Assembly (NCBI GenBank): GCA_017938205.1
Contig: JAGBCA010000031.1
Span: 1 to 41,069 of the forward strand
Length of the DNA stretch: 41,069 nucleotides
Source: Clostridia bacterium
GTDB taxonomy: Bacteria; Bacillota; Clostridia; Oscillospirales; CAG-272
Direction: 5' to 3'
Positions 13,621-35,463 of the stretch are shown piece by piece; position 1 is the stretch's first letter, and each line of letters begins with the position of its first letter. Below the pieces are notes generated by a model, which was not told the origin of the DNA, did no database searches, and saw only the letters and a program-made list of their open reading frames with translations. A program made the position numbers and the translations under genes.

Positions 13621-13643
13621 AAACAAGCACCTCTATCTTTTTA

Positions 13644-17112: not shown

Positions 17113-18498
17113 TCAGAAGATCTCCTCAAAATCGGCTACGATGCCGAAGTCAGCGTACTCAAATATCGGGGCAGACTTATCGGGATTGATGGCAATGACC
17201 GTGCCCGAACGCTGCATACCGACAACGTGATGCACGGCGCCCGAAATGCCAACGGCAATATACAAAGGCGGACTTACGGTGCTTCCCGTCAGACCGACCT
17301 GCATATCGTAGCGTGCGTAGCCGTTGTCCACCAGACGTCTGCTGGCGCAGAGGCGTGCGCCGAGAGAATCGGCAAAGGCTTTGACACGATCCAAAGAGTC
17401 CTTCACGCCGTAGCCTGCGGCCACGATCACGTCATTTTCGGTATCGGATTCGGTGCGCACGGTGGCCATGGCGGGCCTTGTGAGGCTTTTGATCTTGGCG
17501 ATCACACTGCCCGAGAGGGCGGGACGGTACATCATCAGCGTTCCGTTTTCACAGCCGAGGGCGGTACAGTCCGCACACAAACCAAGCGAAAGCTTGGCGG
17601 CAACCAGTGCGGCAAGACGCTTGGAAAGCGGATCGCTCCCCCAAAGGACCGCAGACGGCGCAAGCCTTTGTATCTCGGCGGCAACCGTTTCGGCATCCGT
17701 CAAGGGGATCACCGTTATATCATCGCTGACCGATGCGGCAAATGCACGCGGTGCTTCGCCAACGATGCAAACACTGGCAAGCCGCTCCTTGCTTTCAGAA
17801 GGCGCATCGGCCTTTTTAGCCGTTTTCTTAAGAGCTTCCAAGGTCACAGCAGAAAGCTCATTTGGCGAAATGAATTGGCAGTTTCTTTTTCCGGACTTGT
17901 TTTCAAAGCTCTGCACCACCCTTGTGGGAGAGCCTGCAAGGCCGCATCGGCTTACGTCCGCACCGACGTCTGCTGCGCCGAGGATCTCTACCTCGCAGGA
18001 CTTTGAGCGCAGGCGCGGAAGGCGCAGAACGTGGATCCGCTCCACGCAAAGAAGCGCAGGAAGCGCGCAGGTGACAGTCCCCTCGGTTCTCGTAAGGCAG
18101 CTTATACCGTGATCGCTCACGCTCTCGATCCCCATTACGTTCGTGGCGAGAGAGAGGCCTGCCATCTCCGAAAGCATAGCACCCGTTTGCCCCGTATCTC
18201 CGATCAGTGTTTGCCTGCCGCAAAGAACGAGGTCGGGCGAAAGGTGCTTCAGCGCACAGGAGAGCGCATAGGCGGTTGCCAGCGTATCTGCGCCCGCAAA
18301 GGCCTTATCACTTAAAAGCACGGCGCGGGATGCGCCCAGGCGCGAGAGCCTTTCAAGAAAGTCCTTTGAGGAGGGAGCGGCCATAGATAGAAGCGTTACT
18401 TCTGCATTTTCAATGCGCAGGGCGGCCTCATAGGCAGAGGCATCGAACGGACTGATTTCACCATCCAAACCCTGGCGAATGCAAACAATTATTTTCAT
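17113..18498 (-). CDS. Fused electron-transfer flavoprotein EtfB-EtfA
   Basis: 461 residues that join two proteins normally encoded apart. Residues 1 to about 190 are EtfB-like: MKIIVCIRQ, SDKAFAGADTLATAYAL, CGRQTLIGDTGQTG at 93-106. Residues about 240-461 are EtfA-like, with the FAD-binding domain RRLVDNGYARYDMQVGLTGS, SPPLYIAVGISGAVHHVVGM and APIFEYADFGIVAD. A hydrophilic linker of about 50 residues joins them. The total is shorter than EtfB plus EtfA, so the EtfA Rossmann part is trimmed. Etf proteins carry electrons to or from FAD dehydrogenases; the FAD oxidase and Fe-S protein at the head of the same operon are the likely partners. It overlaps nagA by 4 bases and is the last gene. Confidence 0.87.
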   Translation of the reverse strand: MKIIVCIRQGLDGEISPFDASAYEAALRIENAEVTLLSMAAPSSKDFLERLSRLGASRAVLLSDKAFAGADTLATAYALSCALKHLSPDLVLCGRQTLIGDTGQTGAMLSEMAGLSLATNVMGIESVSDHGISCLTRTEGTVTCALPALLCVERIHVLRLPRLRSKSCEVEILGAADVGADVSRCGLAGSPTRVVQSFENKSGKRNCQFISPNELSAVTLEALKKTAKKADAPSESKERLASVCIVGEAPRAFAASVSDDITVIPLTDAETVAAEIQRLAPSAVLWGSDPLSKRLAALVAAKLSLGLCADCTALGCENGTLMMYRPALSGSVIAKIKSLTRPAMATVRTESDTENDVIVAAGYGVKDSLDRVKAFADSLGARLCASRRLVDNGYARYDMQVGLTGSTVSPPLYIAVGISGAVHHVVGMQRSGTVIAINPDKSAPIFEYADFGIVADFEEIF

Positions 18499-19685
18499 AA
18501 TGCACCCTCATATAGCTCTCCGCCGAGAATTACCTGCTGCACGGAAAGCTCGCTGTCCAAGAGGACCAGATCCGCATCCTTCGATATTTCGATGCTTCCC
18601 TTCTGCTTATCCACACCCATACGCTTTGCGGGGGTGAGGGAGAGCATCACGGAGGCGGTCGGCAGATCCACGCCGTATTTTAAGGTGAGCACACGCAGGC
18701 AGCGATCCATCGTGGCAATACTGCCCGCGAAGGAAAGACGGTCGGGCATTTTTGCAACGCCGTCCTCCACGATCACGTCCTGGCCTGCTTTAAGGCTTCC
18801 GAGCTTGCCTTTTTTCTCCGATGTGCCGGAGAGGCGCGTTCCGTCCGTAATGATACAAACATTTTCCGCGCCCTTGATCTTCAAGGCAAGAAATACGTCC
18901 TCGCGCGGAATATGGCAGCCGTCACCGATCAATTCAACCGTGACGGCATCGTCAAGATAGGTGGCCTCCACAACGCCGGCATATACGGTTTGCTCACGCT
19001 TTCTGTGCATACTGCAGGCATTATAGAAATGCGTGACGTGCGAAAAGCCTGCGCCATAGCCCTTGGCACATTCCTCCGCAGTTGCATCGGTATGTCCAAC
19101 GGCGGTCATAACACCGCGCTCCTTTAAAAATGCGGCAAATTCGCAGGCTCCGGGAAGCTCGGGTGCGGCATCCCAGCGCAGGATCGCACCGTTGCCTACG
19201 GCAAGCAGGCGCTCTGCCTCTTCGAGGTCGGGCAGGCGCAAAACTGCCGTTGGCTGCGCGCCGCTGCTGCTTCTTCCCGCACCTGCAAAATACGGCCCCT
19301 CCAGATGCACGCCGGGCGTGCAAACGGAGAGCGGGCTTTCTTTGCAAAAGGAATGATAGGCGCGGATAAAGTCGGCAAGATCCTCCTCCGTGGCGCTCAT
19401 GGCCGTGGGGTACAGAAGCGTGGTTCCGTGGGCAAGATGGGTGCGGGTTGCTTGCGCGAACGCCTCGGGGGTGGCATCCATAAAATCAGCACCGCCGCCA
19501 CCGTGGACGTGAATATCCACGAAGCCTGCCATCAGGTAGCCTCCCTTGGCATCCAGCTCACGGTCTGCCGATCCCTCGTATCCGATCGCTTGGATCTTTC
19601 CGTCCGAGAGAAGCACGCCGAGCGGCTCGCTCACGCCCGTGGGCAGAACGGCACGCGCGTTTTTGATCAGCAACGTATTTCTCAT
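18495..19685 (-). CDS. nagA: N-acetylglucosamine-6-phosphate deacetylase
   Basis: Amidohydrolase that removes acetate from GlcNAc 6-phosphate, giving glucosamine 6-phosphate. 396 residues. DIHVHGGGGADFMD, HLEGPYF, VGHTDAT, VTHFYNACS and GDGCHIP are in the right order. The catalytic Asp is probably in IITDGTRLSG, where most NagA have TDAM, and THFYNACS replaces THLFNAM, so a variant acetylated sugar is possible. Coupled by 4-base overlaps to the NagB-like gene upstream and to etfBA downstream. Confidence 0.92.
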   Translation of the reverse strand: MRNTLLIKNARAVLPTGVSEPLGVLLSDGKIQAIGYEGSADRELDAKGGYLMAGFVDIHVHGGGGADFMDATPEAFAQATRTHLAHGTTLLYPTAMSATEEDLADFIRAYHSFCKESPLSVCTPGVHLEGPYFAGAGRSSSGAQPTAVLRLPDLEEAERLLAVGNGAILRWDAAPELPGACEFAAFLKERGVMTAVGHTDATAEECAKGYGAGFSHVTHFYNACSMHRKREQTVYAGVVEATYLDDAVTVELIGDGCHIPREDVFLALKIKGAENVCIITDGTRLSGTSEKKGKLGSLKAGQDVIVEDGVAKMPDRLSFAGSIATMDRCLRVLTLKYGVDLPTASVMLSLTPAKRMGVDKQKGSIEISKDADLVLLDSELSVQQVILGGELYEGAL

Positions 19686-20533
19686 TTGTTATATACGCGG
19701 ATCTCGGGAATGGGGCAAGCCGTTGCTACGGATGCCGCATAGATCAGCGCATCGGGGTGGTTTTGGAAAAGAGAACAAGGAACCGATGCGGTGATCTCTC
19801 CGTGAAGGATCTTTCTGAGCGCGGCCGCATTCCAATCTCTGGGCATACACATACGAACCTTCCTTGCCAGCATCATTTCCTTCATGCCCACGGTGATGCA
19901 ATTTTCGGGAATTGCCTCGATATTCGCACCGCAGTTCATAAATGCGTTGATCGTTCTCGTTTCTCTCGTGATCTTGAGCACTCTGGTGGGGCGGTTCGCA
20001 AACTCCTCGGGGGTTACGGTCTCACCCGGCTCCGGCGGCTCGTTAAAGGCATAGTGGCCGTTGATGCCAACGCCGCCAAATACCATATCGAGCTTTCCGT
20101 ACTTCTCGATGATCTGCATGATCCTTCCCTCGTTGCCCGGCTCGGGGAAAATGCGGTTTTCGGGGAGCACGTTCAGCTCCTCGTCCACCTTCGAATAGAA
20201 GGTTCTGTCCATTCCGCCGCGGAAGGAAAGGGGATGGTTGTAATCGATGTACGTACCGTCCTCATTGAGGTATTCGTCCATATTCATAAACACGCAGTTG
20301 CGCAAAGAGATGCGATACTTGTTTACAAGCTCGGCAATGCGCGCGTACGGGCCGAGAGGTCCGTAGGGCACGACCATCACCGTAGGCTCGCCCTTGCGGT
20401 TGTTTTCCGCGATCACCTCAAGCACCTCGATGGCGACCTTCCAATACATATCGACCTCGTGCTCACAAACGTTCAGCTTGATATTGCTCCCCTTACCGAG
20501 CTCGGAGGGGGGAATCAGATTCATGTCCTTCAT
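19682..20533 (-). CDS. NagB-like glucosamine-6-phosphate deaminase homologue (copy 1)
   Basis: 283 residues of the NagB/6-phosphogluconolactonase superfamily. FMNMDEYL, FGGVGINGHYAFNEPPEP and ITVGMKEMM match the deaminase active site and product loop. The usual phosphate-binding LPTGSTP-like loop is replaced by VPYGPLGPY, so it may act on a different or differently placed phosphate, or on an unphosphorylated sugar. Overlaps the FGGY kinase and nagA genes by 4 bases. A second, divergent homologue is two genes upstream. Confidence 0.85.
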   Translation of the reverse strand: MKDMNLIPPSELGKGSNIKLNVCEHEVDMYWKVAIEVLEVIAENNRKGEPTVMVVPYGPLGPYARIAELVNKYRISLRNCVFMNMDEYLNEDGTYIDYNHPLSFRGGMDRTFYSKVDEELNVLPENRIFPEPGNEGRIMQIIEKYGKLDMVFGGVGINGHYAFNEPPEPGETVTPEEFANRPTRVLKITRETRTINAFMNCGANIEAIPENCITVGMKEMMLARKVRMCMPRDWNAAALRKILHGEITASVPCSLFQNHPDALIYAASVATACPIPEIRVYNK

Positions 20534-22011
20534 TTTAATTCTCCTTTATTTTGATATATCGGTGCAAGTGCATCGTGAATGGCTTTGTATTTTTCAAAGA
20601 TTTTTGCGTAAATTTCCGTTTTTTTCGGATCGGGATATACCGTGCTCTTGCGCTTAACGCACTTTTCGACGGCATCCTTCGGTGACGTAAAAATTCCAAC
20701 GGCAACACCTGCGAGCATGGCAGAGCCAAGCGAGGAATCACTGTTTTCCGTGATATTCAGGCAGATCCCGAGCGCATCCGCCGTGATCTGCGCCCAAAGG
20801 GCGCTCTTTGCGCCGCCGCCGATCAGCGTGGCACTCGTGCCGTGCGGAATGTTCAGACCGTCAAGATAGCGCTTGTTATCCAGAAGCGAGAGCGCAACGC
20901 CCTCCAGCACTGCTCTTGTGAAATGCCCCTTCGTATGTGTGGAGCGGATCCCCGTGAAGCTGCCGGCCAGGCAGGGATCGGCATAAGGTGTCAGCTCTCC
21001 GTTGATATACGGATGGAAGATCAGCCCGTCTGCGCCCACGGGAGCAGCGGCGGCCGCCTCGTCGAGCGCGGTGTAATCACCGCCGAAGGTGTCACGGTAG
21101 AAGCGGAAGGCAGAGGCCGCCGCCTTGGTGGCTGTGCCGGGATACCAAAGCCCCTTTACGACGTGAGAATAATTGACGAGGTGGCGGTCCGGCTTCGGGG
21201 CATCGGTGATTACGCAGATGCGCCCCGCCGTGGCGAGCTTCACCGTCATATCCCCCTTTTCCACCGCCCCCGAGGCAAAGATCTCGAGTGCCGTATCGGT
21301 CGTTCCGCAGATCACGGGCGTACCTGCGGCAAGCCCCGTTGCGGCGGCGGCCGCCTCGGTCACCTCTCCCACAACGTCCGTGGGATCAAATAGCGGAGGA
21401 AGCATATCCACCGTGATGCCACAGAGGCCGCAAAGCGCCGCATCCCACTGCATCGTACGGCAATCAAAGAGCATACTTCCCTCTGCCTCGATGCGATCGG
21501 TTCCGTATCGGCCGGTCAGGAAATAGCGGATATAGTCCTTTTCAAAAAAGATATATCGGATCCTTGCAAATATCTGCGGCTCGTTGTTTTTCAAAAAGAG
21601 CAGCTGCGGCAAGGTCCATATCGTATCGGGCTTATGGAAGGTTTTCTTAAAAATTTCATCGCCGCACGTTTTTCTGAGGGCTTCCGCCTCCAGACGGCTG
21701 CGGCTATCTGTCCAATGGATCGCGGGGCGAAGCGGACGGAAATTTTCATCGCATACAAGCGAGGTATGCGTGGCACTGTCCACCGCTACGGCCGCAATAT
21801 CCAAGGGAGAAATATCTGATTTTTCCAGAACGGCCTTGGTGTTTTCGCACAAGGCGGCGATCCAATCCTCCGCGGATTGCTCACAGGCACCGTTCGATGG
21901 GTGGAGCGTTGGATATTCCACCGTATGCGTGGCAAGGATCTTCCCCTCTGCATTCAGTAGCGTTGCCTTGGAGGCACCGCCGCCAAAATCAACTCCCAAT
22001 AAATACTTCAT
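20530..22011 (-). CDS. FGGY-family carbohydrate kinase (xylulokinase-like)
   Basis: 493 residues. The N-terminal nucleotide loop is LGVDFGGGASKATLLNAEG, the sugar-binding WTDSRSRLEAEAL follows, and the second domain has GTTDTALEIFASGAV with the likely catalytic Asp and LIGGGAKSALWAQITAD. The family phosphorylates ketoses, polyols and some aldoses. In this operon it could phosphorylate the ketose made by one of the isomerases; the substrate is not determined by sequence alone. Confidence 0.9.
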   Translation of the reverse strand: MKYLLGVDFGGGASKATLLNAEGKILATHTVEYPTLHPSNGACEQSAEDWIAALCENTKAVLEKSDISPLDIAAVAVDSATHTSLVCDENFRPLRPAIHWTDSRSRLEAEALRKTCGDEIFKKTFHKPDTIWTLPQLLFLKNNEPQIFARIRYIFFEKDYIRYFLTGRYGTDRIEAEGSMLFDCRTMQWDAALCGLCGITVDMLPPLFDPTDVVGEVTEAAAAATGLAAGTPVICGTTDTALEIFASGAVEKGDMTVKLATAGRICVITDAPKPDRHLVNYSHVVKGLWYPGTATKAAASAFRFYRDTFGGDYTALDEAAAAAPVGADGLIFHPYINGELTPYADPCLAGSFTGIRSTHTKGHFTRAVLEGVALSLLDNKRYLDGLNIPHGTSATLIGGGAKSALWAQITADALGICLNITENSDSSLGSAMLAGVAVGIFTSPKDAVEKCVKRKSTVYPDPKKTEIYAKIFEKYKAIHDALAPIYQNKGELK

Positions 22012-22032
22012 ACTCTACCTTCTGTTTTTTTC

Positions 22033-22839
22033 TTAGAAAAGCCCCTCGGCGATCTCTTCCGCGGCGCAAAATTCCACATCAGGATGCGTGCGAAGGAGGC
22101 TTGCGGGGATCGATGCCGTGACCGTATCGAAAAGAACGTGCTTGACGATTCCATGCTGCCACGGGCGGTTGAGCGCGATATAAACACGCTTCGCGGCAAG
22201 GATCTGCTTCATACCTACGGTGATACACCATTCGGGCATACCGCGAAGGTCGCCGCGCTGATAGCCGTATGCATTGATGGTTTTGGTCTCTCTCGTGATC
22301 GGGAGCACTCTCGTGGGAAGCGCGGCAAACGCCTCTGCGCTCATCGGAGCATCCGCCTCGGGCGGCTCGTTGAACGCAATATGGCCGTTGATGCCAAGGC
22401 CGCCAAGGCAGAGATCCACGCCGCCGAGTGCCTCGATCATGCGGTCATACTCCGCCTCCTCACCGGGCTTCGGAAAATGGCGCTGATCCTCGGGCATCAT
22501 GAGCGCAGGATCCACGAGCGAATAAAACTCGTGCTCCATGCGGTAGTGGAAGCTGATCGGATCGCTGTACGAAACCTCCTCGGTGGGAGAGATGAGATAT
22601 TCATCCATATTGAAGAAATGCACGTCCTTCAGCGACACGCGCAGCTGATTGACAAGCCTTGCAAGGATCGGGTACTGCTGCGTTGGTCCAACGGGAACGA
22701 TCATTACTGTTTTCTTTCCTGCGGCGTTGTTTTTCATGATCTCATCGAGCATGACGAGCGCCATGTCAAAATACACATCCCACTCGGTTTTTGCTGTTTT
22801 AAACTTGATATTGTCAACTTTAGTTTCCATTTTTTTCAT
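22033..22839 (-). CDS. NagB-like glucosamine-6-phosphate deaminase homologue (copy 2)
   Basis: 268 residues, same superfamily as copy 1 but clearly diverged. FFNMDEYLIS, LGGLGINGHIAFNEPPEA and ITVGMKQIL are present, while the phosphate loop reads VPVGPTQQYP instead of the usual TGSTP form. The start is ambiguous between 22839 (4-base overlap with the epimerase gene) and an ATG 9 bases later. Two divergent NagB homologues in one operon suggest two different substrates, anomers or a heteromeric enzyme. Confidence 0.83.
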   Translation of the reverse strand: MKKMETKVDNIKFKTAKTEWDVYFDMALVMLDEIMKNNAAGKKTVMIVPVGPTQQYPILARLVNQLRVSLKDVHFFNMDEYLISPTEEVSYSDPISFHYRMEHEFYSLVDPALMMPEDQRHFPKPGEEAEYDRMIEALGGVDLCLGGLGINGHIAFNEPPEADAPMSAEAFAALPTRVLPITRETKTINAYGYQRGDLRGMPEWCITVGMKQILAAKRVYIALNRPWQHGIVKHVLFDTVTASIPASLLRTHPDVEFCAAEEIAEGLF

Positions 22840-24044
22840 TTCTCCCCTTTCGATTCGATGGGTAAAGCCTTGTTTTCATTCATTGCTTTAAAGATCTGCG
22901 TGAGGATCATAAATGCACGCACGTTATGGAAGGGGCCCTTCCAATCGCTGCCCTTGATATAGTTGATCGGCGTACCGTCGCGGTGCAGATGGCCGAACCA
23001 TTCGGGATGCCCCTCGTCCGGAAAATGCGCCCATACGTAGGTCTTGATCTTATCAAACCAAGCCATGTATGTTTCGTCGCCGCTGTACCAATAGGAGTAG
23101 GCCAGCGCGATCATTGCCTCGCAATGCGGCCAGAAGAGCTTCATATCCCATTCAAGGCTCGTGACAGGCTTGCCCTCCACGTCCACGAAGTAAAAGATAC
23201 CGTCCTTTTCCTTGTCCCAGCCAAGCTCCAAGGACCAAAGAAGCACCTGCATACAGCGCTCCATCAGAGCCTTATCCTTTCTGTGGATAGCCTCCTTCAT
23301 CATAAACCAGGCGGTTTCCATGCTATGACCGGGGTTGATCAGGCGGCCTTCGGGAGAATTGAGCCGTTCGCCATTCGCGCCCACCGTTTCAAAGAGGGCT
23401 TTTTCCTCCTCCTTGATAAACACGCCCGTGATCGTATCCAAGCACTCGGTGATCAGGGCATCGTATTTCGGATCGGCGTTGATCTCTCTGACCGTTTGCG
23501 CCACGTTCATCATGATCATCACGATGCTGTGGCCGCGGTTTTTTCTTGTTTCGGGATTTACCTTCGGCGTGAAAACGCCGGGAGTTTTGTAATAATAGAG
23601 CATTTTATCGAAGAGCGCGATGGCCTTTTCCTTGGCCTCGGTAAGTCCCGTGGCCTTATAATACTCCGCATATCCCATCACGGCAAACGCCTCAGAGAAA
23701 TAATAGCGGCGCTCCACCAGGGGCTTACCGTCGCGCGTTACGCGGAAATACATATGTCCGTTTTCCGCAAAGCAATATTTGTTGATAAAATCGTAGCCGC
23801 ATTTTGCCGCCGCAAGCCACGCGGGATCTTTTCCGAACTCATTGTAGAGTTTTGAGAACATCCAAAGACTTCTTCCCTGCTGCCATACGGATTTATCCTC
23901 AAGAAAAAGCTCTCCGTCCCGCATAAAGCCGCAGAGATAGCCGCCGTATTCGGGATCGGGCGAAAACTTCGTCCAGAACGGAACGAAGTTGGAAAGCAGC
24001 ACGTTCTCAAAATCCTTTGCGTAAGCACCGAAATCTCTTTTCAT
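22836..24044 (-). CDS. AGE-family N-acylglucosamine 2-epimerase-like protein
   Basis: 402 residues of the (alpha/alpha)6-barrel AGE superfamily, which includes GlcNAc/ManNAc epimerase, cellobiose epimerase, mannose isomerase and sulfoquinovose isomerase. WQQGRSLWMFSKLYNEFG, GHMYFRVTRDGKPLVERRYY, HSMETAWFMMKEA and YIKGSDWKGPFHNVRAFM are typical, with the catalytic histidines in the HSMETAW and FHNVRAFM helices. The ATG at 24044 is preferred because GAGGAAG lies 7-8 bases upstream; a GTG at 24068 that overlaps the previous stop lacks a ribosome site. Confidence 0.88.
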   Translation of the reverse strand: MKRDFGAYAKDFENVLLSNFVPFWTKFSPDPEYGGYLCGFMRDGELFLEDKSVWQQGRSLWMFSKLYNEFGKDPAWLAAAKCGYDFINKYCFAENGHMYFRVTRDGKPLVERRYYFSEAFAVMGYAEYYKATGLTEAKEKAIALFDKMLYYYKTPGVFTPKVNPETRKNRGHSIVMIMMNVAQTVREINADPKYDALITECLDTITGVFIKEEEKALFETVGANGERLNSPEGRLINPGHSMETAWFMMKEAIHRKDKALMERCMQVLLWSLELGWDKEKDGIFYFVDVEGKPVTSLEWDMKLFWPHCEAMIALAYSYWYSGDETYMAWFDKIKTYVWAHFPDEGHPEWFGHLHRDGTPINYIKGSDWKGPFHNVRAFMILTQIFKAMNENKALPIESKGEK

Positions 24045-24064
24045 TTTTTCTTCCTCACTGTATT

Positions 24065-25744: not shown

Positions 25745-25762
25745 TTATATTTCCTTTTTCTT

Positions 25763-26791
25763 TCAATGGCTGATGCATAGGACAAGCTCCATGTTTCCTT
25801 CCATATAAAGAGGTCCTGCGCACGCGCTCACGAAGAAATTATCTCCTTTTTTCAGGGGAATTTGCTTTCCGTCCGAAAGAACCGTTCCGTTTCCTTCCGT
25901 GACAACGGCAACCGCATACGAATCCGAAAGATCCGTCTTTGCCCTGCCCGACACGCAAAGACGCGACATAGAAAACTTATCCGTTAAGGAAGCATCCACG
26001 ATCGGAACCATTTGGTTCTCTTTTCGCTCGGGATGGCGAAAATACCGCTTGCGCGTTTCTTCCTCGGAAAGCCCCTCGTAGGAATACACGTCAAACATTT
26101 CTTCAAATCCAAGGCCTGCGTGCAGCTTTTTCTCTGCGAGAACGACACCTGAGGGCGTAACGCGCTCTGGAATGACCATCAGATCGCTCGGCTCCTGCAG
26201 CTCGATCATAAAGGAACCACCGCCGATGGCGTGCGGAACACCACCCGCAACGAACCAAAGATCCCCTGCCTTTACGGGGAATTTATGCAGGCAGGAAAGC
26301 ATCCCCTCCACATCCTGCGACCGAAACAGGGCTTCCCACTTTTCACGCGTGATGCCTTCCTTGAAGCCAAGATACACGTGTGCCTGCGGCTCTGCATCCA
26401 AGATGTACCAGCACTCGGTTTTGCCAAAAGGGGCGCCCATGCGCTCTCTTGCGAACTCCACCGTTGGATGGCACTGGATCACGAGACGCTCGGCAGAATC
26501 AAGAAGCTTAACGAGAAGGGACATTTTGCCTCCGTCTGCATGATAGCATCTCTCGCCAAGCAGTATGGGACCTTTTTCCGAAAGAAGATCGCGAAAGCTT
26601 TTTCCGTCTTCGGTATAGGAAACGCCTTCTCCCTCTCTTGGCAGATCGGGATTAAAGGCCTCGACCGAGGAGGCAAGCCATTCTTCGGGGTATCTGCCGT
26701 CCTCGGCGTTTTCTTTTCCTAAAAAGCGATCGATCCGTTTACCGCCAAAATAGGCACGTCTGACACGGTTTTCCTTGAATTTGACAATCAT
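25763..26791 (-). CDS. Mannose-6-phosphate isomerase-like protein, class I
   Basis: 342 residues, the short Firmicutes-type phosphomannose isomerase. Zinc ligands are visible in VIQCHPTVEFA, FGKTECWYIL and GGVPHAIGGG, and the cupin core continues with FMIELQEPSDLMVIPE. The family interconverts mannose 6-phosphate and fructose 6-phosphate. The gene is embedded among other isomerases, so it may serve a different aldose phosphate here. The IolB-like gene ends 3 bases before its start. Confidence 0.88.
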   Translation of the reverse strand: MIVKFKENRVRRAYFGGKRIDRFLGKENAEDGRYPEEWLASSVEAFNPDLPREGEGVSYTEDGKSFRDLLSEKGPILLGERCYHADGGKMSLLVKLLDSAERLVIQCHPTVEFARERMGAPFGKTECWYILDAEPQAHVYLGFKEGITREKWEALFRSQDVEGMLSCLHKFPVKAGDLWFVAGGVPHAIGGGSFMIELQEPSDLMVIPERVTPSGVVLAEKKLHAGLGFEEMFDVYSYEGLSEEETRKRYFRHPERKENQMVPIVDASLTDKFSMSRLCVSGRAKTDLSDSYAVAVVTEGNGTVLSDGKQIPLKKGDNFFVSACAGPLYMEGNMELVLCISH

Positions 26792-26794
26792 TGT

Positions 26795-27583
26795 TTACTT
26801 TATCCAATCATGCTCCGGGTCGTTGGATCGGTTGAAGCCCTGATAATCTCCTGCCATCAGCCAGAGGAAATAGGTCTTATATCCGGGCGTGGAGACTGTG
26901 GAATGGAAGCCGCGGGGGAACTCCACGAGCTCGTCATTCTTCACGCGATAGCACTCGTCGATCTCTCCGTCCGAGGTATAGAGGCACTGCACGGCAAAGC
27001 CCTGCTCAGGCTCAAAGAGGAAGTAATAGATCTCCTCCGCGATGCACTCCTTCGGCATATTGTCTTCATCGTGCTTATGGGGCGGGAATCCTGCCCAGTT
27101 GCCCTCGGTGGTATAGGCTTCGCCCACCGTGAGGATCTTTGCATTCGAATTACCGTCGATGATAAAGCTCGTTTCTCTCTCGAAGGGAACTCTGCCAAGC
27201 AGCTTCAGAACCACGTGATCCTCACGCAGCACCTGCGGCTCGGTCACCTCTGCGATCGGCGTTGCACAAACGGCGATCTTCAAGTGATCCAGCGCCTCGA
27301 CCGTCAGCTTCATATCTCTCGGCATATAGAAGCTCTCGGCTCTTCTGTTTTCAAAAACGGAGCTTCTGTTGCCGACGTTTTCAAATGTTCCGCCCTCGTA
27401 CTTTACGTTGCAATGACCGTACAGAAGGATGAAGGCGGTTTCCTTATCCTCGGTGTTATACGCCACCGTTTCGCCTGCCGAAAGCTCGATAATACCAAAT
27501 TCCAGCTTCTTCAAGGAGCATTCTCCGATCTTGCAGATCGGCGTGTAGCCCGTTGCTTTTTCATATTTCTTCTTAAAATTCAT
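26795..27583 (-). CDS. IolB-like 5-deoxy-glucuronate isomerase
   Basis: 262 residues of the bicupin IolB family, which converts 5-deoxy-glucuronate to 2-deoxy-5-keto-gluconate in inositol breakdown. The metal site PPHKHDEDNMPKE followed by EEIYYFLFEPEQGFAVQCLY is clear, as are YRVKNDELVEFPRGFHS and PGYKTYFLWLMAGDY near the end. No iolG, iolE or iolD is in the window, so inositol itself is unlikely to be the substrate. Kinase and class II aldolase genes lie upstream in the same operon. Confidence 0.87.
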   Translation of the reverse strand: MNFKKKYEKATGYTPICKIGECSLKKLEFGIIELSAGETVAYNTEDKETAFILLYGHCNVKYEGGTFENVGNRSSVFENRRAESFYMPRDMKLTVEALDHLKIAVCATPIAEVTEPQVLREDHVVLKLLGRVPFERETSFIIDGNSNAKILTVGEAYTTEGNWAGFPPHKHDEDNMPKECIAEEIYYFLFEPEQGFAVQCLYTSDGEIDECYRVKNDELVEFPRGFHSTVSTPGYKTYFLWLMAGDYQGFNRSNDPEHDWIK

Positions 27584-27606
27584 AACGCTCTCCTAAAAAA
27601 TTATTT

Positions 27607-29007
27607 TTAATCCTCAAGCGGATCAAATTCCACACCGTCTACCAAACGGCAGAAATCCTTTAGATACTCCGCATAATTCCCATATATCTCGGAAACGTGA
27701 TGGATATACGGTCCTTCGATGATCTTTCTTTCCAGCTTCGGAAGATCCTTGAACTGCGCCCAAAGATAGGTGCCTGTGGTTTCGGGACCCTCACAGGTAT
27801 GAAACTTACCGCCAAGCAGATAATATTTTCCTTTTTCCGCTTGGAAGCGCGCCAGCGTATATTCGCCGTCGCGCACGCGAAAGGCAGGCTTTGCATCGAT
27901 CAGGTGAGGCTTTTCTCCCTCGGCCGCGCAAGATGTGGGGAATGGGCCGCAATGCCAGAGAAGCTCTGCATTGTCGTTTTCGGGATGGCGCGTGGTAAAC
28001 TCACCCTGCAGAGGCTTTCCTCTGCCGCGCGTTGCCGAAAGCAAGAGCGCATTCGTGATCGACATAAAGAGGTCGCCCTCACAGGTGACGAAGATGCCCT
28101 TCTCTGCCGCAAGGCTCATCGCAAGGCAGGGGAATACGCCGAGCCCGAGACCGATGCCCGACCAGCATTCCGTTCCGATGATATTCGTGCCGTACGTTTT
28201 TGCCATACGCTCAAAGAGAGTCACGGTGGCAAGCAAGCGAAGGAGCTTATCTTCATCCGTTTCACCCACGTCGAAGTTCTTCTTTAACGAAACGAGCTCC
28301 TTTTGGAGCATTTCGCGCTCGTTTTCATAGATCCCCGTCAGCTCGTTCATCGCCTCAAGGAGATTGACGGAGATGACGTCAATGCCAAACCGCTCGCAAA
28401 GCTCAAGCTCGTTATACATAACGGATTTAAAGGGGCGGATACGCGTGCCCACGGAGAGGATCTTCAGCCTTTTGAAGTTATTCACCATGCAGGCAACGCC
28501 GAAGAAGCGGCGCAGCCCCTCGTCAAAGGCGGAAGCGGTAATGTCACAGTTTTCAATATAGGAAAACCTCACGCCGTTTCGCTTCAAGGCCTTACTCATT
28601 GCGAAAAGACCGCACTGTGTGTCGGTGTACCGCTTGCCGTTTTCAAAGCGGCGGTCACGCGGGCCCCAAAGAAGCGTGGGAACGGAAAGTGCACGCGCGA
28701 CCTCGGCCGCCACGCGCTCCTCTCCGAAATTGCAGTTCACGATAAAGAGCGCATTGATCCTTTCGCTCTCAAAATGCTCGATCACACGTGCGCAGTCCTC
28801 GGGGCGGCGCAAAAGCCCCTCCTCGTTGAGAAATTCAATATCTACAAACTCGGTATTCTCATCCTCGTAGTTTTCACGCAGATATTTTAAGGTCATATCC
28901 TTGTTTTCTATCGCGTAGTCGCTTTGGAAAATACCGATCCTTTTCGGCGGCTCCTTGATCATTCGACGAATGGTGAGCACGCCGATCTTTAATTTATAGT
29001 TCAGCAT
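27607..29007 (-). CDS. L-fucose isomerase-like sugar isomerase
   Basis: 466 residues resembling the FucI/AraA superfamily. The N-terminal domain has a flavodoxin-like start (LKIGVLTIRR), ALFIVNCNFGEERVAAEVAR and LLWGPRD; the middle has IGTECWSGIGLGLGVFPC and VTCEGDLFMSITNALLLSAT, where Glu and Asp correspond to metal-binding positions. The C-terminal part ends in a FucI-C-like domain (FPTSC, AKGKYYLLGGKF-like). The family makes ketoses from aldoses; the substrate is not identifiable. Spaced 22-23 bases from both neighbours. Confidence 0.82.
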   Translation of the reverse strand: MLNYKLKIGVLTIRRMIKEPPKRIGIFQSDYAIENKDMTLKYLRENYEDENTEFVDIEFLNEEGLLRRPEDCARVIEHFESERINALFIVNCNFGEERVAAEVARALSVPTLLWGPRDRRFENGKRYTDTQCGLFAMSKALKRNGVRFSYIENCDITASAFDEGLRRFFGVACMVNNFKRLKILSVGTRIRPFKSVMYNELELCERFGIDVISVNLLEAMNELTGIYENEREMLQKELVSLKKNFDVGETDEDKLLRLLATVTLFERMAKTYGTNIIGTECWSGIGLGLGVFPCLAMSLAAEKGIFVTCEGDLFMSITNALLLSATRGRGKPLQGEFTTRHPENDNAELLWHCGPFPTSCAAEGEKPHLIDAKPAFRVRDGEYTLARFQAEKGKYYLLGGKFHTCEGPETTGTYLWAQFKDLPKLERKIIEGPYIHHVSEIYGNYAEYLKDFCRLVDGVEFDPLED

Positions 29008-29029
29008 ATTTCACTCCAAAAAATCAATT

Positions 29030-29947
29030 TCAAAGAAAATAACCGTGTTTTTGTAAATAATTCTTTACAGTTTCAAAGTTCGGAACACTTTCTCTTGCAC
29101 CGATGCCCATGCATTTGATCGCAGAAACGGCACTTGAAAATCGTGCACATACTTCGTAAGAATATCCCTTTGTAAGTCCAAAGGCGAAGGCGCCGTGAAA
29201 GACGTCGCCCGAGCCGTTGGAATCCTTGACCTCGACGGAAAAGACGGGATAACGGAGAATATCCTTGCCGTCATAGATCAGACCGCCGCGGCTTCCCTGC
29301 GTGATCACCACCACACGCGGAGAATACAGCTTAAAAAGCTTCTCGGCCGCCGCCTCGGCACTGCTCTCACCCGTATGACCGAGTGCAAATTCCTCAGAGG
29401 GGATCATAATATCCGTCAGGGCAAGCAGACGTGCAACGCCGGGATACAGACCGCCGCAGTCGTAAAGCACGGTGGTGCCGCTCTCACGCGCGAGCTCTGC
29501 CGCCTCCACGGCGGCATCCATATCGTTGCCGTCCACCATCAGAAGATCCGCTTCCCCGATAGCGCGGCGCGCATCCTCCGAGAGGGAGAGAGGCGGCAGA
29601 TCGCCTCTGTCAAAAACGCAGGTGCGGCTTGCGCTTTCCTCCGAAAGCCAGATCACCGAAGTGAAGGAGCGATGGCCCGAAAGCGTTGTAATAAGCGAGG
29701 TATCCACGCCGTATTTTTCAAAATCCGAAAGAAGAAAGGCACCCGCGGAATCGGTAGAAAGATTGCCGATAAAGGCCGTGCTTGCGCCGAGCCTTGCGGC
29801 GGCAACGAGCCCCGTTGCCGCAGGGCCTCCGCCCGCGGTTTTGCTTGCAAGGGCGCAAATCTTCGTGTCCTCCTTCGGGAAGTGCGGCACCGTCATCAGC
29901 GTGTCGGCAACGCAGGCGCCGATCGCAACTATCTTCCCTGCCATCAC
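29030..29947 (-). CDS. PfkB-family carbohydrate kinase
   Basis: 305 residues of the ribokinase fold. It begins KIVAIGACVADTLMTVPHFP, has the first PfkB signature TAGGGPAATGLVAAARLGAS and ends with the catalytic DSNGSGDVFHGAFAFGLTKG. It overlaps the class II aldolase gene by 4 bases, so the two probably act in sequence: phosphorylation of a keto-sugar (acid) and then cleavage. In inositol breakdown the same pairing is IolC and IolJ. Confidence 0.9.
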   Translation of the reverse strand: MMAGKIVAIGACVADTLMTVPHFPKEDTKICALASKTAGGGPAATGLVAAARLGASTAFIGNLSTDSAGAFLLSDFEKYGVDTSLITTLSGHRSFTSVIWLSEESASRTCVFDRGDLPPLSLSEDARRAIGEADLLMVDGNDMDAAVEAAELARESGTTVLYDCGGLYPGVARLLALTDIMIPSEEFALGHTGESSAEAAAEKLFKLYSPRVVVITQGSRGGLIYDGKDILRYPVFSVEVKDSNGSGDVFHGAFAFGLTKGYSYEVCARFSSAVSAIKCMGIGARESVPNFETVKNYLQKHGYFL

Positions 29948-30783
29948 GCCTTACCGTCCGCTCCGACGAGCTTGATCTTCTCCACGGCAAGCGCCTTTAC
30001 GCTTGCGATGGCACGCTTCATAAAGACGTCTATGCCGATGCTTCTCTTAGGATCGTCCAGCGCCGCCTTCGTTCCGTCCGCAAAGGCACAACAAACGTCC
30101 GTGCCGATGTTCATTTTACGAATTCCCGCCGCGATCGCCGCCTTGACCTCGGCATCCGGAATGCCCGAGCCGCCGTGCAGAACAAGCGGAATGCCGCCCG
30201 TGGTTTCACGGATCGCGCGAATGCGCTCGATATCGATCTTCGGGGGCTTTTTATAGTGGCCGTGCGCGTTGCCGACCAGAACGGCAAGGCAGCAAACGCC
30301 GGTCTTGCGGACGAATTCGCCTGCCTCAAAGGGATCGGTGAACTCCTCCATCTTGTCATCGTTTACGCTTCCGATATGACCGAGCTCGCCCTCAACGCCG
30401 ATGCCGAGGGGGGCACACAATTCAACGATCTCGCGCGTTAAGCGCACGTTGTCCTCAAAGGACTCGGTGGATGCATCGCGCATGATACCGGTCGCGCCCC
30501 AATAAAGGGTGCGGCTGATCTCGGGGATGCCTGCGCCGTGGTCCAGATGGAAGCAAACGGGCACGCTTGCGCGGCGCGCCGCCGCCACAACGGCAGGGGC
30601 GATATAGAATCCTACCTCCTCATTGATCAGACGGGGATAGATCTGGATGATGACGGGGGCTCTCTGCTCCTCTGCCGCATCGATCACGCCCATCACGGTC
30701 TCCGTGTTGTAAACGTTAAACGCAGGGATGCAGTAGCCGCCCTTTTCTGCCATAGCAATGATTTCCTGAAGCTTTACCAACAT
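29944..30783 (-). CDS. Class II (zinc) ketose-bisphosphate aldolase
   Basis: 279 residues of the FbaA/GatY/IolJ family. Zinc ligands and active-site residues are in VCFHLDHGAGIP, GELGHIGSVND, GNAHGHYKKPP and LVLHGGSGIP, and the phosphate loop is KMNIGTD. The family cleaves fructose 1,6-bisphosphate, tagatose bisphosphate or deoxy-keto-gluconate phosphate to a triose phosphate and an aldehyde. GNAHG replaces the commoner GTSHG. Neighbouring kinase and isomerases point to a catabolic rather than housekeeping role. Confidence 0.9.
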   Translation of the reverse strand: MLVKLQEIIAMAEKGGYCIPAFNVYNTETVMGVIDAAEEQRAPVIIQIYPRLINEEVGFYIAPAVVAAARRASVPVCFHLDHGAGIPEISRTLYWGATGIMRDASTESFEDNVRLTREIVELCAPLGIGVEGELGHIGSVNDDKMEEFTDPFEAGEFVRKTGVCCLAVLVGNAHGHYKKPPKIDIERIRAIRETTGGIPLVLHGGSGIPDAEVKAAIAAGIRKMNIGTDVCCAFADGTKAALDDPKRSIGIDVFMKRAIASVKALAVEKIKLVGADGKA

Positions 30784-30786
30784 ATC

Positions 30787-31875
30787 TTATTCCCCCAAGA
30801 TCAAGTCTTCCAGAGAGAGAACCTCGATCTCACTCTGCTCTACGCTCTTCAGCGCTGTGTACTCCGAAACGCATGCAGTCACCACGGCGCACTCACCGAT
30901 GGACTTCACGTTCGAAAGACGACGCGCCGCTACCTTTTTCATAACCTCCGGCATATACTGTGCCATCAGGATATTGCCTGCCCAAACGGTTTCGCCGCGG
31001 TTCAGGTGAAGCTCGTGCAACGTGGCAAATTCCGCGATCACGGCTCTTGCCTCCTCGGTTTCCTCAAGGTCGCGGGCGAGCTGATAGGGATCCTGGTAAA
31101 CGACGGTCTTATCCGCCTTCTTTCCAACAAGCTTGCCATCCTTTACGAGCGCGGCAAGCGCGGCCGTATAGGTCTGCACGGCGGCGGTGGTTTCCACACC
31201 GTATTCCTTATAGGTTCTCTTCATCACCTTGGCATCGGTGGGATCGTAAACGATCACGGTCTTAAAGCCATCCATCACCTTGGCGTTTGCAAGCATCTGC
31301 TGCTTGGTCTCATCCGCCGCGCCGATCAGGAAGTCCAGCTGTGCGCCGGAGGGCAGCTCGTCTGCCAGCACCGTGAACGCAAGGCCTGCCTTTTCCAGCA
31401 CGCGGATCGCCTTCACTGCCTGCTTGCAGGCCATATATCTTGCATCTGCACCGAGGTACAGAAGCGTATCCGTCTTTTCCTTGTGCTCTGCGATCTTTGC
31501 AGAAAGCGTTTCGCAAAGCACGGTCTTTCCGTATGCGTTGCCCTCGTCAAGGCAATGATCCACCATCGCGTTGATATATGCGGGAAGCTTATCCTCAAGA
31601 GCCGCCTGCAGTCTTACCTCCTTGGTGAACATCACAGGATCCCATCCCGTTACGCAATCGTGCACGCAAGCGCCGCAGCCTGCGCACTCGTATATATTGT
31701 CCATGATCTCTTCAAGGCCGATTGCGCCTCTGTTGACAAGAGAGATACCGAGCGCACGGGCGCGGGGGGTGCTTCTCTCGTGTCCCGTTGCGTTGCCGAT
31801 GGGGCAAATATGGTGGCACATCCAGCAGAAACGGCAGGAATCCACGTGTGTTTTACATTTATCCGACATATTCAT
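30787..31875 (-). CDS. Fe-S protein of a GlcF/HdrB-like type with degenerate CCG domain
   Basis: 362 residues. Two [4Fe-4S] ferredoxin motifs near the N-terminus: CRFCWMCHHICP (Cys 14, 17, 20, 24) and CAGCGACVHDC (about 64-74). The rest aligns in layout with the GlcF/LutA/HdrB cysteine-rich region, but the family cysteines are missing: VYQDPYQLARDLE replaces the usual DPCHLGR type and no CCG is seen. It probably passes electrons between the FAD oxidase encoded directly upstream and the fused Etf. 14 bases separate it from the oxidase gene. Confidence 0.82.
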   Translation of the reverse strand: MNMSDKCKTHVDSCRFCWMCHHICPIGNATGHERSTPRARALGISLVNRGAIGLEEIMDNIYECAGCGACVHDCVTGWDPVMFTKEVRLQAALEDKLPAYINAMVDHCLDEGNAYGKTVLCETLSAKIAEHKEKTDTLLYLGADARYMACKQAVKAIRVLEKAGLAFTVLADELPSGAQLDFLIGAADETKQQMLANAKVMDGFKTVIVYDPTDAKVMKRTYKEYGVETTAAVQTYTAALAALVKDGKLVGKKADKTVVYQDPYQLARDLEETEEARAVIAEFATLHELHLNRGETVWAGNILMAQYMPEVMKKVAARRLSNVKSIGECAVVTACVSEYTALKSVEQSEIEVLSLEDLILGE

Positions 31876-31889
31876 AACTTCTTACCTCC

Positions 31890-33326
31890 TTACAGACCGA
31901 GCTTGAAGGGATTCATGATCCCGTTGGGGTCAAGCTGCTTCTTCAGTCCCTCGAATACCTGCATTGCAGGTCCGTACTGCTCCTTCATCAAGCGGCCGAG
32001 CTTGATGCCGACACCGTGATGGTCGTTCACTACGCCGCCGTGCGCAAGCGCCGCTCTGACACCGCAGGTCCAGATCTGCTGATGCAAACGAAGAGCCTCT
32101 ACGGGATCCTGGGGCACGTCCTTACCCTCAACGATAAAGCGGTCATATACCATTGCGCCCCACTCATACCAATGCGAGAAGTGCGCGATAAACTTCGCCT
32201 GCGGGAAGTTGGATTCGATGGCGTTCTTCATTGCCCAATAGATCTCTTCGATCTTATCGTAGGGCGCGATGGTATCCATCGTGCCGAACATCTGCGGAAT
32301 GTCCATCATATGGCCGGGATAGAAGAAGGTGATCTTTTCCTTCCACCACTTCTCACCGTACTCGGAACCGAGATCCTCTGCGCCGTACTTTTTGAAGGTA
32401 TCCAGTAGCAGCTTCTCTTCTACCTCCACAAGCTCCTTGCAGCCCTCGATCGCCACGTTCATAAACGCACCTTTGCGCGCCACGCCGACGATCTTCTTGA
32501 TAAGAGATGCGGTCTCCGCCTCGTCATACAGACGCATAACGGAGGGCTTGAACTTCTGAAGAAGCTCTCGCGATGCCTGGAACGCGCCGTGCATATCCTG
32601 GAAAAGGAAGCCTCTGAAGCGGCGCTCCTCGGGCATATCGTAGATACGCATCTGCGCCTTGGTGATGATGCCGAGCGTTCCCTCCGAGCCGATAAAGATC
32701 TGGTTCAGATCGGGGCCTGCCGCGTGCTTGGGCGCGGGGCTGGTCTCGATAATATCACCGTTGGGAAGAACGACCTCCATCTTCAGCACCATATCGTCGA
32801 TCTTGCCGTACTTCGTGGAGCAAACGCCGATGCCTCTGTGCGCAAGGAAGCCGCCGACGGTGGAGCAGGTCAAGGAAGAAGGATAGTGCATCGTTGCCTT
32901 TCCGACCTCGTTGGCCGCCCATTCGATGTGCTTATAGATCGCACCCGTGCCGCACTCTATGTACATTCCCTCGGTGTTTACCTCGTAGATCTGATTCATA
33001 CGCTTGGTGTCCAGAAGGATACCGCCGCAAACGGGAATGGCGCCGCCCTGCGTGCCGCCACCTGCGCCCCAGGTGGTTACGGGGAGCTTATAATAGTTCG
33101 CGATCTTCACGACCTTGGAAACCTCGGTGGCATCCTTGGGAGAAACGATGAAGTCTGCCTCAGGCATACGCTCTCCTCTGTCCGCCCACATACGGGACAA
33201 CCAATAGTAGTCCACACTATGCGTCACCTTGTCGATCTGTCTGACCGAGCAATTCTCCACGCCAACGGCGTCCTCAAGCTCGGTCAAGATCATCGAAAAC
33301 AAAAATTCGTTCATTTTGATCTGCAT
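31890..33326 (-). CDS. FAD-linked oxidase (GlcD/AGPS-like)
   Basis: 478 residues of the PCMH/VAO FAD-binding family. The FAD domain shows IVSPKDATEVSKVVKIANYY, WGAGGGTQGGA and GTGAIYKHIEWAA, followed by SLTCSTVGGFLAHRGIGVCS and DLNQIFIGSEGTLGIITKA; the C-terminal end DHHGVGIKLGRLMKE and LDPNGIMNPFKLGL is shared by hydroxyacid dehydrogenases and alkyl-DHAP synthase. With the Fe-S protein and Etf of the same operon it resembles Etf-linked lactate/glycolate dehydrogenases. Start at 33326 is supported by GAGGAG 10 bases upstream. First gene of the operon. Confidence 0.88.
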   Translation of the reverse strand: MQIKMNEFLFSMILTELEDAVGVENCSVRQIDKVTHSVDYYWLSRMWADRGERMPEADFIVSPKDATEVSKVVKIANYYKLPVTTWGAGGGTQGGAIPVCGGILLDTKRMNQIYEVNTEGMYIECGTGAIYKHIEWAANEVGKATMHYPSSLTCSTVGGFLAHRGIGVCSTKYGKIDDMVLKMEVVLPNGDIIETSPAPKHAAGPDLNQIFIGSEGTLGIITKAQMRIYDMPEERRFRGFLFQDMHGAFQASRELLQKFKPSVMRLYDEAETASLIKKIVGVARKGAFMNVAIEGCKELVEVEEKLLLDTFKKYGAEDLGSEYGEKWWKEKITFFYPGHMMDIPQMFGTMDTIAPYDKIEEIYWAMKNAIESNFPQAKFIAHFSHWYEWGAMVYDRFIVEGKDVPQDPVEALRLHQQIWTCGVRAALAHGGVVNDHHGVGIKLGRLMKEQYGPAMQVFEGLKKQLDPNGIMNPFKLGL

Positions 33327-33424: not shown

Positions 33425-33453
33425 TTGACTTTTTTCAGAAAAAATGATAAAAT
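33425..33453 (+). promoter_or_regulatory. Promoter of RpiR regulator gene
   Basis: TTGACT (33425-33430), 17-base spacer, TAAAAT (33448-33453). It shows that a TTG at 33425 cannot be the translation start of the regulator. Confidence 0.75.
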
Positions 33454-33455
33454 AA

Positions 33456-33470
33456 TGGAAAAAATTTTCA
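33456..33470. promoter_or_regulatory. Possible RpiR operator
   Basis: TGGAAAAAATTTTCA is an imperfect palindrome between the -10 and the ribosome site of the RpiR gene. RpiR/MurR-type sites are often TGAAA...TTTCA palindromes. It is A/T rich, so chance is possible. Confidence 0.35.
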
Positions 33471-33484
33471 TTACGAGGTCAAAG

Positions 33485-34324
33485 ATGGAATCCATCGTAC
33501 ATAAAATCCGTTTTTCCCTGAGCTCCATGGGTCCTGCGGAGAAAAAGATCGCGAATTATCTTCTCCAGCACACGGGCGAGATCATCGATATTTCGATCTC
33601 GGAGCTTGCCAAGCAATGCGGCTGCGGCGATGCCACGATCGTGCGCTTTTCAAGGCGTCTTGGGCTGACGGGATATCAAGAGCTGAAGCTCGGTATCGCG
33701 GCAGAGGTGAACGCATCCTCCAGCATTAGTGCAGAGATCGAAAAGGGCGACAGCTGCTTTGAAATATTTAAAAAGAGGATCGTGGATATATCCAATTCCC
33801 TCTCCAGCACGGAAACGGTGCTGGACGAGGCGGCGCTCGACCGCGCCTCCTCGGTGATCAGCAAGGGGGATCGCATCGTGATCTTCGGGCTTGGCAACTC
33901 AGCCGCGATCGCACAGGATGCGGCGCACAAATTCCTACGCCTCGGACTTTCCGCGCAGGCTTGCTGTGACAACCATATGCAGGCCATCATCGCCTCGCAC
34001 CTGAAGCGCGGCAACGTGGCGATCGGCATTTCGCACTCCGGCGCCTCCAAGGACATCGTGGAGGCGCTGCGGCTGAGCAAGGCCTGCGGTGCGACCACGA
34101 TCTGCGTGACGAACCACGGCGCTTCTCCCTTGGCGGAGACGGCGGAGATCCGTCTTTTCACAAAATCCGAGGAAACGAAGCATTCGATCCTCGCCATGAG
34201 CTCGCGCATTGCGCAGCTCGCGATCCTCGACAGCATCTACACCCACATCGTTCTGAACTCCTCGAAGCCCTCAAAGCAAGCGATCTACAACACGGAATTT
34301 GCTTTGCAGGATAAGAAATACTAA
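33485..34324 (+). CDS. RpiR/MurR-family regulator
   Basis: 279 residues. N-terminal HTH_6: ANYLLQHTGEIIDISISELA then QCGCGDATIVRFSRRLGLTG; C-terminal SIS domain with IVIFGLGNSAAIAQDAAHKF and GISHSGASKDIVEAL, which binds sugar phosphates. The ATG at 33485 is chosen because GAGGT lies 5 bases upstream and the promoter occupies the earlier in-frame sequence. It is divergent from the 14-gene operon and is its probable regulator; MurR of this family responds to MurNAc 6-phosphate. Confidence 0.92.
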   Translation: MESIVHKIRFSLSSMGPAEKKIANYLLQHTGEIIDISISELAKQCGCGDATIVRFSRRLGLTGYQELKLGIAAEVNASSSISAEIEKGDSCFEIFKKRIVDISNSLSSTETVLDEAALDRASSVISKGDRIVIFGLGNSAAIAQDAAHKFLRLGLSAQACCDNHMQAIIASHLKRGNVAIGISHSGASKDIVEALRLSKACGATTICVTNHGASPLAETAEIRLFTKSEETKHSILAMSSRIAQLAILDSIYTHIVLNSSKPSKQAIYNTEFALQDKKY

Positions 34325-35313: not shown

Positions 35314-35319
35314 GCCTCG

Positions 35320-35348
35320 ATTATAACAGAAAAAAATTGGCTTGTCAA
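35320..35348 (-). promoter_or_regulatory. Consensus promoter abutting the AraC start codon
   Basis: Minus strand: TTGACA (35348-35343), 17-base spacer, TATAAT (35325-35320), then CGAGGC and the ATG at 35313. Transcription would begin at or within a base or two of the ATG. Confidence 0.8.
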
Positions 35349-35400
35349 GATATAGGCCAATTAGTTTCGAAATTTCTACCCACTCCATCCGTTTTTTAGG

Positions 35401-35435: not shown

Positions 35436-35463
35436 AAGAAATCAATTTGTAAGGAGATTTATT

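Follow-up and report, generated by a model that had tools for sequence, protein, structure and literature searches.

Why does a single bacterial operon combine genes for amino-sugar breakdown with an isomerase-kinase-aldolase set and an electron-transfer-flavoprotein (Etf)-linked flavoenzyme, and do all of them serve one pathway? The question is raised by positions 17113-33326 of a 41,069-nt stretch of Clostridia bacterium DNA (contig JAGBCA010000031.1; the whole stretch is called the window below), where 14 open reading frames (ORFs; g1 to g14 in the ORF listing) follow in succession on the minus strand, reading from 33326 down to 17113. A preliminary description had proposed that an N-acetylmuramic acid (MurNAc)-like sugar is opened here and that the flavoenzyme chain oxidises the lactate released from it. 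We find that the operon is a mosaic, made of a recurring core and an optional amino-sugar add-on.

A recurring core and an optional amino-sugar add-on

The comparison was built on the flavoenzyme gene g1 (FADox; 31890-33326), which served as the bait, and all co-occurrence counts are conditional on it. From 47 loci with a FADox above 50% identity, we kept the 30 that offered at least 7.5 kb downstream and at least 1.5 kb upstream; 17 were dropped for too little flank, and L024 was excluded beforehand because its contig, judged by equal length, was taken to be that of L094. A gene was scored as absent when no same-strand tblastn match of at least 33% identity was found inside the fetched locus. 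The counts were taken from tblastn because some gene calls sit on the wrong strand (e.g. in L170 and L172).

The iron-sulphur protein (FeS; g2, 30787-31875) and the FGGY kinase (g11, 20530-22011) accompany FADox in all 30 loci, the class II aldolase (g3, 29944-30783) and the IolB-type isomerase (g6, 26795-27583) in 29 each, the PfkB sugar kinase (g4, 29030-29947) in 28 and the fused EtfB-EtfA chain (g14, 17113-18498) in 27. The IolB copy of L118 has 32% identity and so falls under the threshold; counting it, IolB is present in 30/30. The regulator (19 loci) and the isomerase-like g5 (27607-29007; 18 loci) are frequent, and relatives also carry DUF4867 (11 loci; PF16161 tested on L137), an aldose 1-epimerase homologue (6 loci; PF01263 tested on L168) or an Ldh_2 dehydrogenase (2 loci).

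The amino-sugar genes are optional. A NagA-like deacetylase (g13, 18495-19685) was found in 8 of the 30 loci, the NagB homologues NagB1 (g10, 22033-22839) and NagB2 (g12, 19682-20533) in 7 and 3, a class I phosphomannose-isomerase-like protein (PMI; g7, 25763-26791) and the MurQ-like g8 (24065-25744) in 4 each, and an AGE-family 2-epimerase (g9, 22836-24068) in 2. NagA is accompanied by a NagB homologue in 8/8 loci, and all four FADox loci with the MurQ-like gene also hold NagA and NagB1. The preliminary description had treated the whole set as one unit, which would be undermined if its genes were rarely neighbours elsewhere: the core genes are regular neighbours (FeS and FGGY 30/30, Etf 27/30), and most amino-sugar genes are indeed rare ones (NagA 8, MurQ-like 4, AGE 2). 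Because of these co-occurrence counts, we assign the flavin-FeS-Etf chain to the isomerase-kinase-aldolase core.

In most of the complete clusters the order, common though not universal, is FADox-FeS-aldolase-PfkB-IolB-(mutarotase/DUF4867)-FGGY-Etf. L019 and L173 place the aldolase and PfkB last, L118 also differs, and in the window g5 sits between PfkB and IolB. L118, with a FADox of 56-57% identity, holds IolB, FGGY and an aldolase together with a glycerol-dehydrogenase-type gene and a TRAP transporter. The genes flanking the core clusters are mostly unrelated and differ from genome to genome. Among the core clusters, IolB identity to the window falls into two classes, ~74-92% or 37-42%; g5 and aldolase identities also look bimodal, mixed across clusters as if isozymes were exchanged. 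The Ldh_2 dehydrogenase is joined to the core in L137 (5196-7510), which adds a malic-enzyme-type gene, and in L088 (6633-7754).

The gene set, as yet uncharacterised, is found in many Clostridia. With FADox as the query, 29 of 391 sampled same-class genomes matched at an E-value of 1e-60; FADox at 82% identity or more is held by 26 of the 391 (source genome counted, two via partial matches), and the other three matches have 54, 34 and 33% identity. Across the phylum, 8 of 398 genomes matched (source genome counted), two others exceeding 36% with 72% and 57%. Among relatives FADox was found in 10 of 59 genomes (source genome counted), every match being within the same genus, and two families that were picked since they already held matches gave 8/16 and 9/70. 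A scan of named genomes with g8 returned 39 loci, of which eight (L019-L026, two on short contigs) share at least 54% identity; FADox is present in the locus in four of these eight and in none of the remaining 31. The operon is found, altered in order and content, in L019, L023 and L024, and in part in L025.

Operon structure and gene families

The 13 junctions of the operon comprise six 4-nt overlaps and seven gaps (14, 3, 22, 23, 3, 18 and 21 nt), which bears out the earlier picture of 14 tightly packed minus-strand genes (overlaps of 4 nt, gaps under 25 nt). Directly 3' of the g14 stop lies a strong intrinsic terminator (17102-17064, minus strand; 17 pairs, 9 of them G-C, with a T-rich tail), and a regulator of the RpiR/MurR type with HTH_6 and SIS domains is encoded divergently on the plus strand (33425-34324); both had been predicted. 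The single promoter of that description did not find clear support: the promoter-like site 5' of g1 (33471-33444, minus strand) is weak, with a 9/12 match, two further minus-strand sites of 9/12 lie within the operon at 28206 and 23686, and the 18 promoter-like sites across the region are near the chance level (shuffled mean 12.4, sd 3.9). Chance does not explain the arrangement, since many other Clostridia also have the core genes side by side. The 14 genes are a genuine co-directional sugar-catabolic operon, mixing amino-sugar, isomerase-kinase-aldolase and Etf-linked redox genes as originally claimed.

Families were assigned by Pfam and NCBIfam profile searches using the curated NCBIfam cut-offs. 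Only two operon proteins exceed such a cut-off, IolB (TIGR04378, 222.3 bits against 205) and the class II aldolase (TIGR00167, 243.3 against 215.6; PF01116, 280 bits). The FGGY kinase is XylB-like (TIGR01312, 368.1 against 380.25 bits), and PfkB (PF00294) stays under the cut-offs of the ribokinase and IolC models (107.5 bits against 300 for IolC). The sole model matched by g5 is SftI (NF048012, 75.6 bits; cut-off 700), with no Pfam model matched at an E-value of 0.001 and no PDB sequence at an E-value of 1. In the optional group, the scores are 94.5 against 116.2 bits for PMI (TIGR00218), 364.4 against 600 for the AGE-family protein (PF07221, 176 bits), 94.2 and 100.7 against 236.9 for NagB1 and NagB2 (TIGR00502), and a marginal 215.1 against 225.65 for NagA (TIGR00221). 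The family names of the preliminary description thus stand in Pfam and NCBIfam, except that the Etf is one fused chain (461 aa; PF01012 in two stretches, and PF00766) and that the protein called FucI-like matches the SftI model only.

The flavoenzyme and its redox partners

FADox is a VAO/PCMH flavoprotein (PF01565 and PF02913) that does not reach the cut-off of the curated GlcD model (188.5 bits; cut-off 567.9). Its best PDB match is alkyl-dihydroxyacetone-phosphate (alkyl-DHAP) synthase (2uuu, E-value 2.8e-41), followed by D-lactate dehydrogenase (2e-34), glycolate oxidase (1.1e-29) and LctD (8e-29). The HHGVG segment is common to FADox and alkyl-DHAP synthase; FADox is shorter, however, and a sugar operon encodes it alongside its FeS and Etf partners. 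In an alignment with the D-lactate dehydrogenase 8jdb, the HxGDGN and EHG segments of D-2-hydroxyacid dehydrogenases, which we take to be their metal site, were not found in FADox: the first His is kept, the GDGN segment is replaced and EHG has become HHG. Its operon partners, the 4Fe-4S dicluster protein FeS (Fer4_8 and Fer4_17) and the Etf, suggest a redox role for FADox rather than one in ether-lipid synthesis.

The nearest solved chains of the fused Etf are CarE, 5ol2 and LctC, presumably all bifurcating Etfs. The Etf-linked lactate dehydrogenase LctBCD (PDB 7qh2) resembles the operon in pairing an Etf, which is among the nearest solved ones, with an FAD enzyme of the same superfamily, but the operon differs in a FADox nearer to alkyl-DHAP synthase, a separate FeS protein, a fused Etf and a sugar-operon context. 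Should the Etf bifurcate in the redox step, this would give energy conservation a new entry point in sugar fermentation.

In the comparison FADox also stands out as much better conserved than the proteins with which it probably exchanges electrons. Where all seven compared genes are present (24 clusters), pairwise identity has a median of 87% in FADox, but of 53% in FeS, 61% in the aldolase, 59% in PfkB, 52% in IolB, 61% in FGGY and 50% in Etf. At four-fold third positions, the median difference over all pairs is 0.61 for FADox and 0.65-0.68 for nine other genes. As these sites are nearly as diverged in FADox as elsewhere, the constraint acts mainly on the protein, and recent transfer is disfavoured as the reason for its conservation. 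FADox relatives at 33-34% identity (L108, L109 and L121) adjoin FGGY and genes that look GlpA- and GlpB-like by eye.

The amino-sugar genes

In g13, the HLEGP, GHT, TH and TD segments, assumed here to be the metal and catalytic segments of NagA deacetylases, align with those of solved enzymes (best PDB E-value 1.3e-41). The DEY and NGHI-FNEP segments are kept in both NagB homologues, as aligned with the solved deaminase 2bkv for NagB1 and as read from the sequence without alignment for NagB2. An Asn in place of Asp had been considered as a sign of inactivity and was dropped, as 2bkv has the same Asn.

The MurQ-like g8 is a 559-aa double-SIS protein of MurQ/GKRP type, which matched a GKRP N-terminal SIS model and fell below all three curated MurQ models (134.9 against 168, 112.1 against 302 and 109.9 against 255 bits). 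We aligned three ECPP-bearing MurQ proteins with 24 double-SIS members (that of the window and those of 23 of the 39 g8 loci). The ECPP segment, whose Glu we consider a functional residue of MurQ, is present in 3/3 MurQ proteins and in 0/24 double-SIS proteins; g8 itself keeps a Glu in the aligned column, where its kin show K, R and others. A second Glu region is retained, with E147, E150 and D151 invariant in the 24 sequences. On another contig (C41), the source genome also encodes a MurQ of 275 aa that does bear ECPP; the 91-aa fragment ahead of it looks by eye like the end of a sugar kinase. Compared with NagA-NagB catabolism with MurQ, the likeness is that NagA and NagB homologues and a MurQ-related SIS protein share one operon; here, however, all score under the curated cut-offs, the MurQ-like protein is of about double length and lacks ECPP, and the genes are set in a FADox-IolB-FGGY-aldolase core.

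In planctomycetes, a NamZ homologue (reference from L033) lies near the double-SIS gene in 7/8 loci (L029, L033, L035, L036, L039, L047 and L053; not L055), with an SSF symporter in 6/8 and a beta-lactamase-fold protein in 5/8; the Pfam names of these neighbours were tested on L033 only. This reveals a double-SIS family that is linked to NamZ yet lacks the MurQ signature; because of this link the add-on, and it alone, may act on a muramic-type substrate. For g8, an etherase, a dehydratase or a regulatory role is possible. A dehydratase is conceivable because NagS, a MurQ relative, dehydrates N-acetylglucosamine 6-phosphate (GlcNAc-6P) according to the part of PMC12680351 available. As a separate observation, a PfkB-type kinase adjoins the double-SIS gene in 12 loci (L030, L031, L034, L038, L040, L043, L044, L045, L046, L051, L054 and L057), an assignment whose Pfam match was tested on L034 only.

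A proposed pathway and its alternatives

In our reading, the core joins known enzyme families in a new way to cut a sugar down to dihydroxyacetone phosphate (DHAP). Gene content, order, conservation and families are consistent with a mosaic route, to which we give an even chance, in which the core would break down one class of sugar to DHAP, FADox, FeS and EtfBA would form a redox complex, and the add-on would feed the same steps. Its core members would be the RpiR-type regulator, FADox, FeS, the class II aldolase, PfkB, IolB, FGGY, the fused EtfBA and often g5. In relatives, the mutarotase (aldose 1-epimerase) or DUF4867 may open the aldose; in the portions of PMC11968277 and PMC9594981 consulted, DUF4867 is a proposed mutarotase or ring-opener in ketose metabolism with no activity detected. 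IolB, g5 or both would then convert the aldose into a ketose, FGGY would phosphorylate it, PfkB would add a second phosphate, and aldolase cleavage would yield DHAP and a C3 aldehyde or its phosphate. The single FADox-FeS-EtfBA complex would move electrons between an alcohol-type sugar intermediate and NAD or ferredoxin; this intermediate would most likely be a polyol or a sugar acid that supplies the IolB step. The add-on (NagA with NagB1 and/or NagB2, sometimes with the MurQ-like protein, AGE and PMI) would remove the acetyl and amino groups of an N-acetyl amino-sugar phosphate, and the resulting ketose phosphate could enter the same PfkB-aldolase steps. The operon copies look dedicated, as NagB, PFK and class II aldolase each have further matches in the source genome.

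Several observations weigh against this mosaic route. The L089 locus is without aldolase and PfkB, L118 without PfkB and Etf, and L117 without Etf; L103 also has no Etf, though its contig stops soon after FGGY. Two isomerases and two kinases would be redundant in one line and make sense only if two entry points exist, and the FADox complex could run as a reductase. The flanking glycosidases vary: glycoside hydrolase family 36 (GH36) in L096 and L099, GH31 in L025, GH39 with a solute-binding protein in L139, a raffinose-synthase-type gene in L140 and GH116 in L173. Naming the sugar from adjoining glycosidases or transporters was dropped, since these vary among the loci.

The original proposal, in which the MurQ-like protein frees lactate from a MurNAc-like sugar, FADox-FeS-EtfBA oxidises it and the sugar passes through NagA and NagB, draws on the constant company of NagA and NagB1 in the four MurQ-like loci, the NamZ homologue in 7/8 planctomycete loci, the resemblance of the Etf to LctBC and the place of D-lactate dehydrogenase as second-best PDB family for FADox. 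It now appears quite improbable: in 26 of the 30 FADox clusters the locus shows no MurQ-like gene, FADox comes closest to alkyl-DHAP synthase and, relative to D-lactate dehydrogenase, has GDGN replaced and EHG changed to HHG, ECPP is missing in 24/24 aligned double-SIS proteins, and the ECPP-bearing MurQ of the host sits elsewhere in the genome. On the co-occurrence and motif evidence we therefore set aside the idea that the main task of FADox is to oxidise lactate. A narrower alternative concerns g8 only, which may act as a dehydratase like NagS or, like GKRP, as a regulator that binds sugar phosphates, instead of being a MurNAc-6-phosphate etherase, with the add-on handling plain N-acetyl amino-sugar phosphates. 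We consider it a serious though doubtful candidate, favoured by the loss of ECPP with retention of the second Glu region, by the activity of NagS and by the GKRP N-terminal model; the NamZ neighbours in planctomycetes speak against it, as do the distance of the GKRP similarity and the restriction of NagS orthologs to Streptomycetaceae reported in the accessible text of PMC12680351.

The remaining alternatives concern the core. An inositol-like route is unlikely. In it the aldolase, PfkB and IolB would act as IolJ, IolC and IolB; the substrate would be a uronate-like acid, formed with FADox taking part, and the products DHAP and an acid semialdehyde. The myo-inositol catabolism of Anaerostipes (IolB, IolC and IolJ; PMC8355322, seen in excerpt) shares IolB, PfkB, a class II aldolase and the expected DHAP with the operon, IolB exceeds its cut-off, aldolase, PfkB and IolB are neighbours in most clusters, L117 also has an AP-endonuclease-type isomerase and a Gfo/Idh gene that scores weakly to IolG, and the TRAP transporter of L118 could suit an acid. 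The canonical inositol route is nevertheless weakened, because no IolD match was found in the source genome at an E-value of 0.001 (assembly 84% complete); PfkB is far under the IolC cut-off, FGGY and mutarotase/DUF4867 fit nowhere in such a route, and FADox-FeS-Etf is additional to it. Still less credible, and in our view highly improbable, is a sulfo-EMP-like pathway with g5 as sulfoquinovose isomerase, DUF4867 as SqvB, PfkB as sulfofructose kinase and the aldolase as SqiA. Like sulfo-EMP2 and sulfo-SFT sulfoglycolysis (as described in extracts of PMC9594981 and PMC11968277), the operon has an SftI-like isomerase, a class II aldolase and, in relatives, DUF4867 (11/30 loci); SftI is the only model matched by g5, the Ldh_2 protein of L137, with a homologue in L088, scores best to L-sulfolactate dehydrogenase, and L025 has its GH31 gene between FADox and FeS. 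The scores are far under the cut-offs, however (75.6 and 97.3 against 700; 257 against 500), 12/30 loci are without g5, and FGGY, IolB and the Etf-linked FADox are additional and left unexplained. Moreover, in the available part of PMC11968277 the DUF4867 network has its largest cluster (FucI family with FGGY) apart from the one for sulfoglycolysis.

Searches of the open-licence literature, as far as its texts were available, yielded no description of the gene set, in line with the preliminary description, whose author knew of no described pathway with this set; the FucI-family and FGGY neighbourhoods of DUF4867 noted in PMC11968277 (in the part at hand) overlap part of the core. A fuller form of the mosaic reading, which we put forward tentatively and at somewhat less than even chance, is that the core represents an undescribed anaerobic sugar pathway in which an alkyl-DHAP-synthase-like flavoenzyme, FeS and a bifurcating-type EtfBA would oxidise or reduce a sugar-derived alcohol, some Clostridia adding an N-acetyl or muramic amino-sugar module that would converge on the same aldolase.

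Other genes of the window

Upstream of the operon, positions 34558-41068 hold a second sugar-type group, with a divergent AraC-type regulator followed by SIS_2, PfkB and Gfo/Idh genes and three ORFs without a Pfam match; the last ORF extends past the window edge. Histidine biosynthesis genes (HisRS-like, HisG, HisD, an aminotransferase and IGPD) occupy 5723-10513 with a Trp-repressor-family gene at their head, and three more ORFs extend down to 3638. At 10788-13626, a phosphoglucomutase-family gene adjoins a GH130-family gene.

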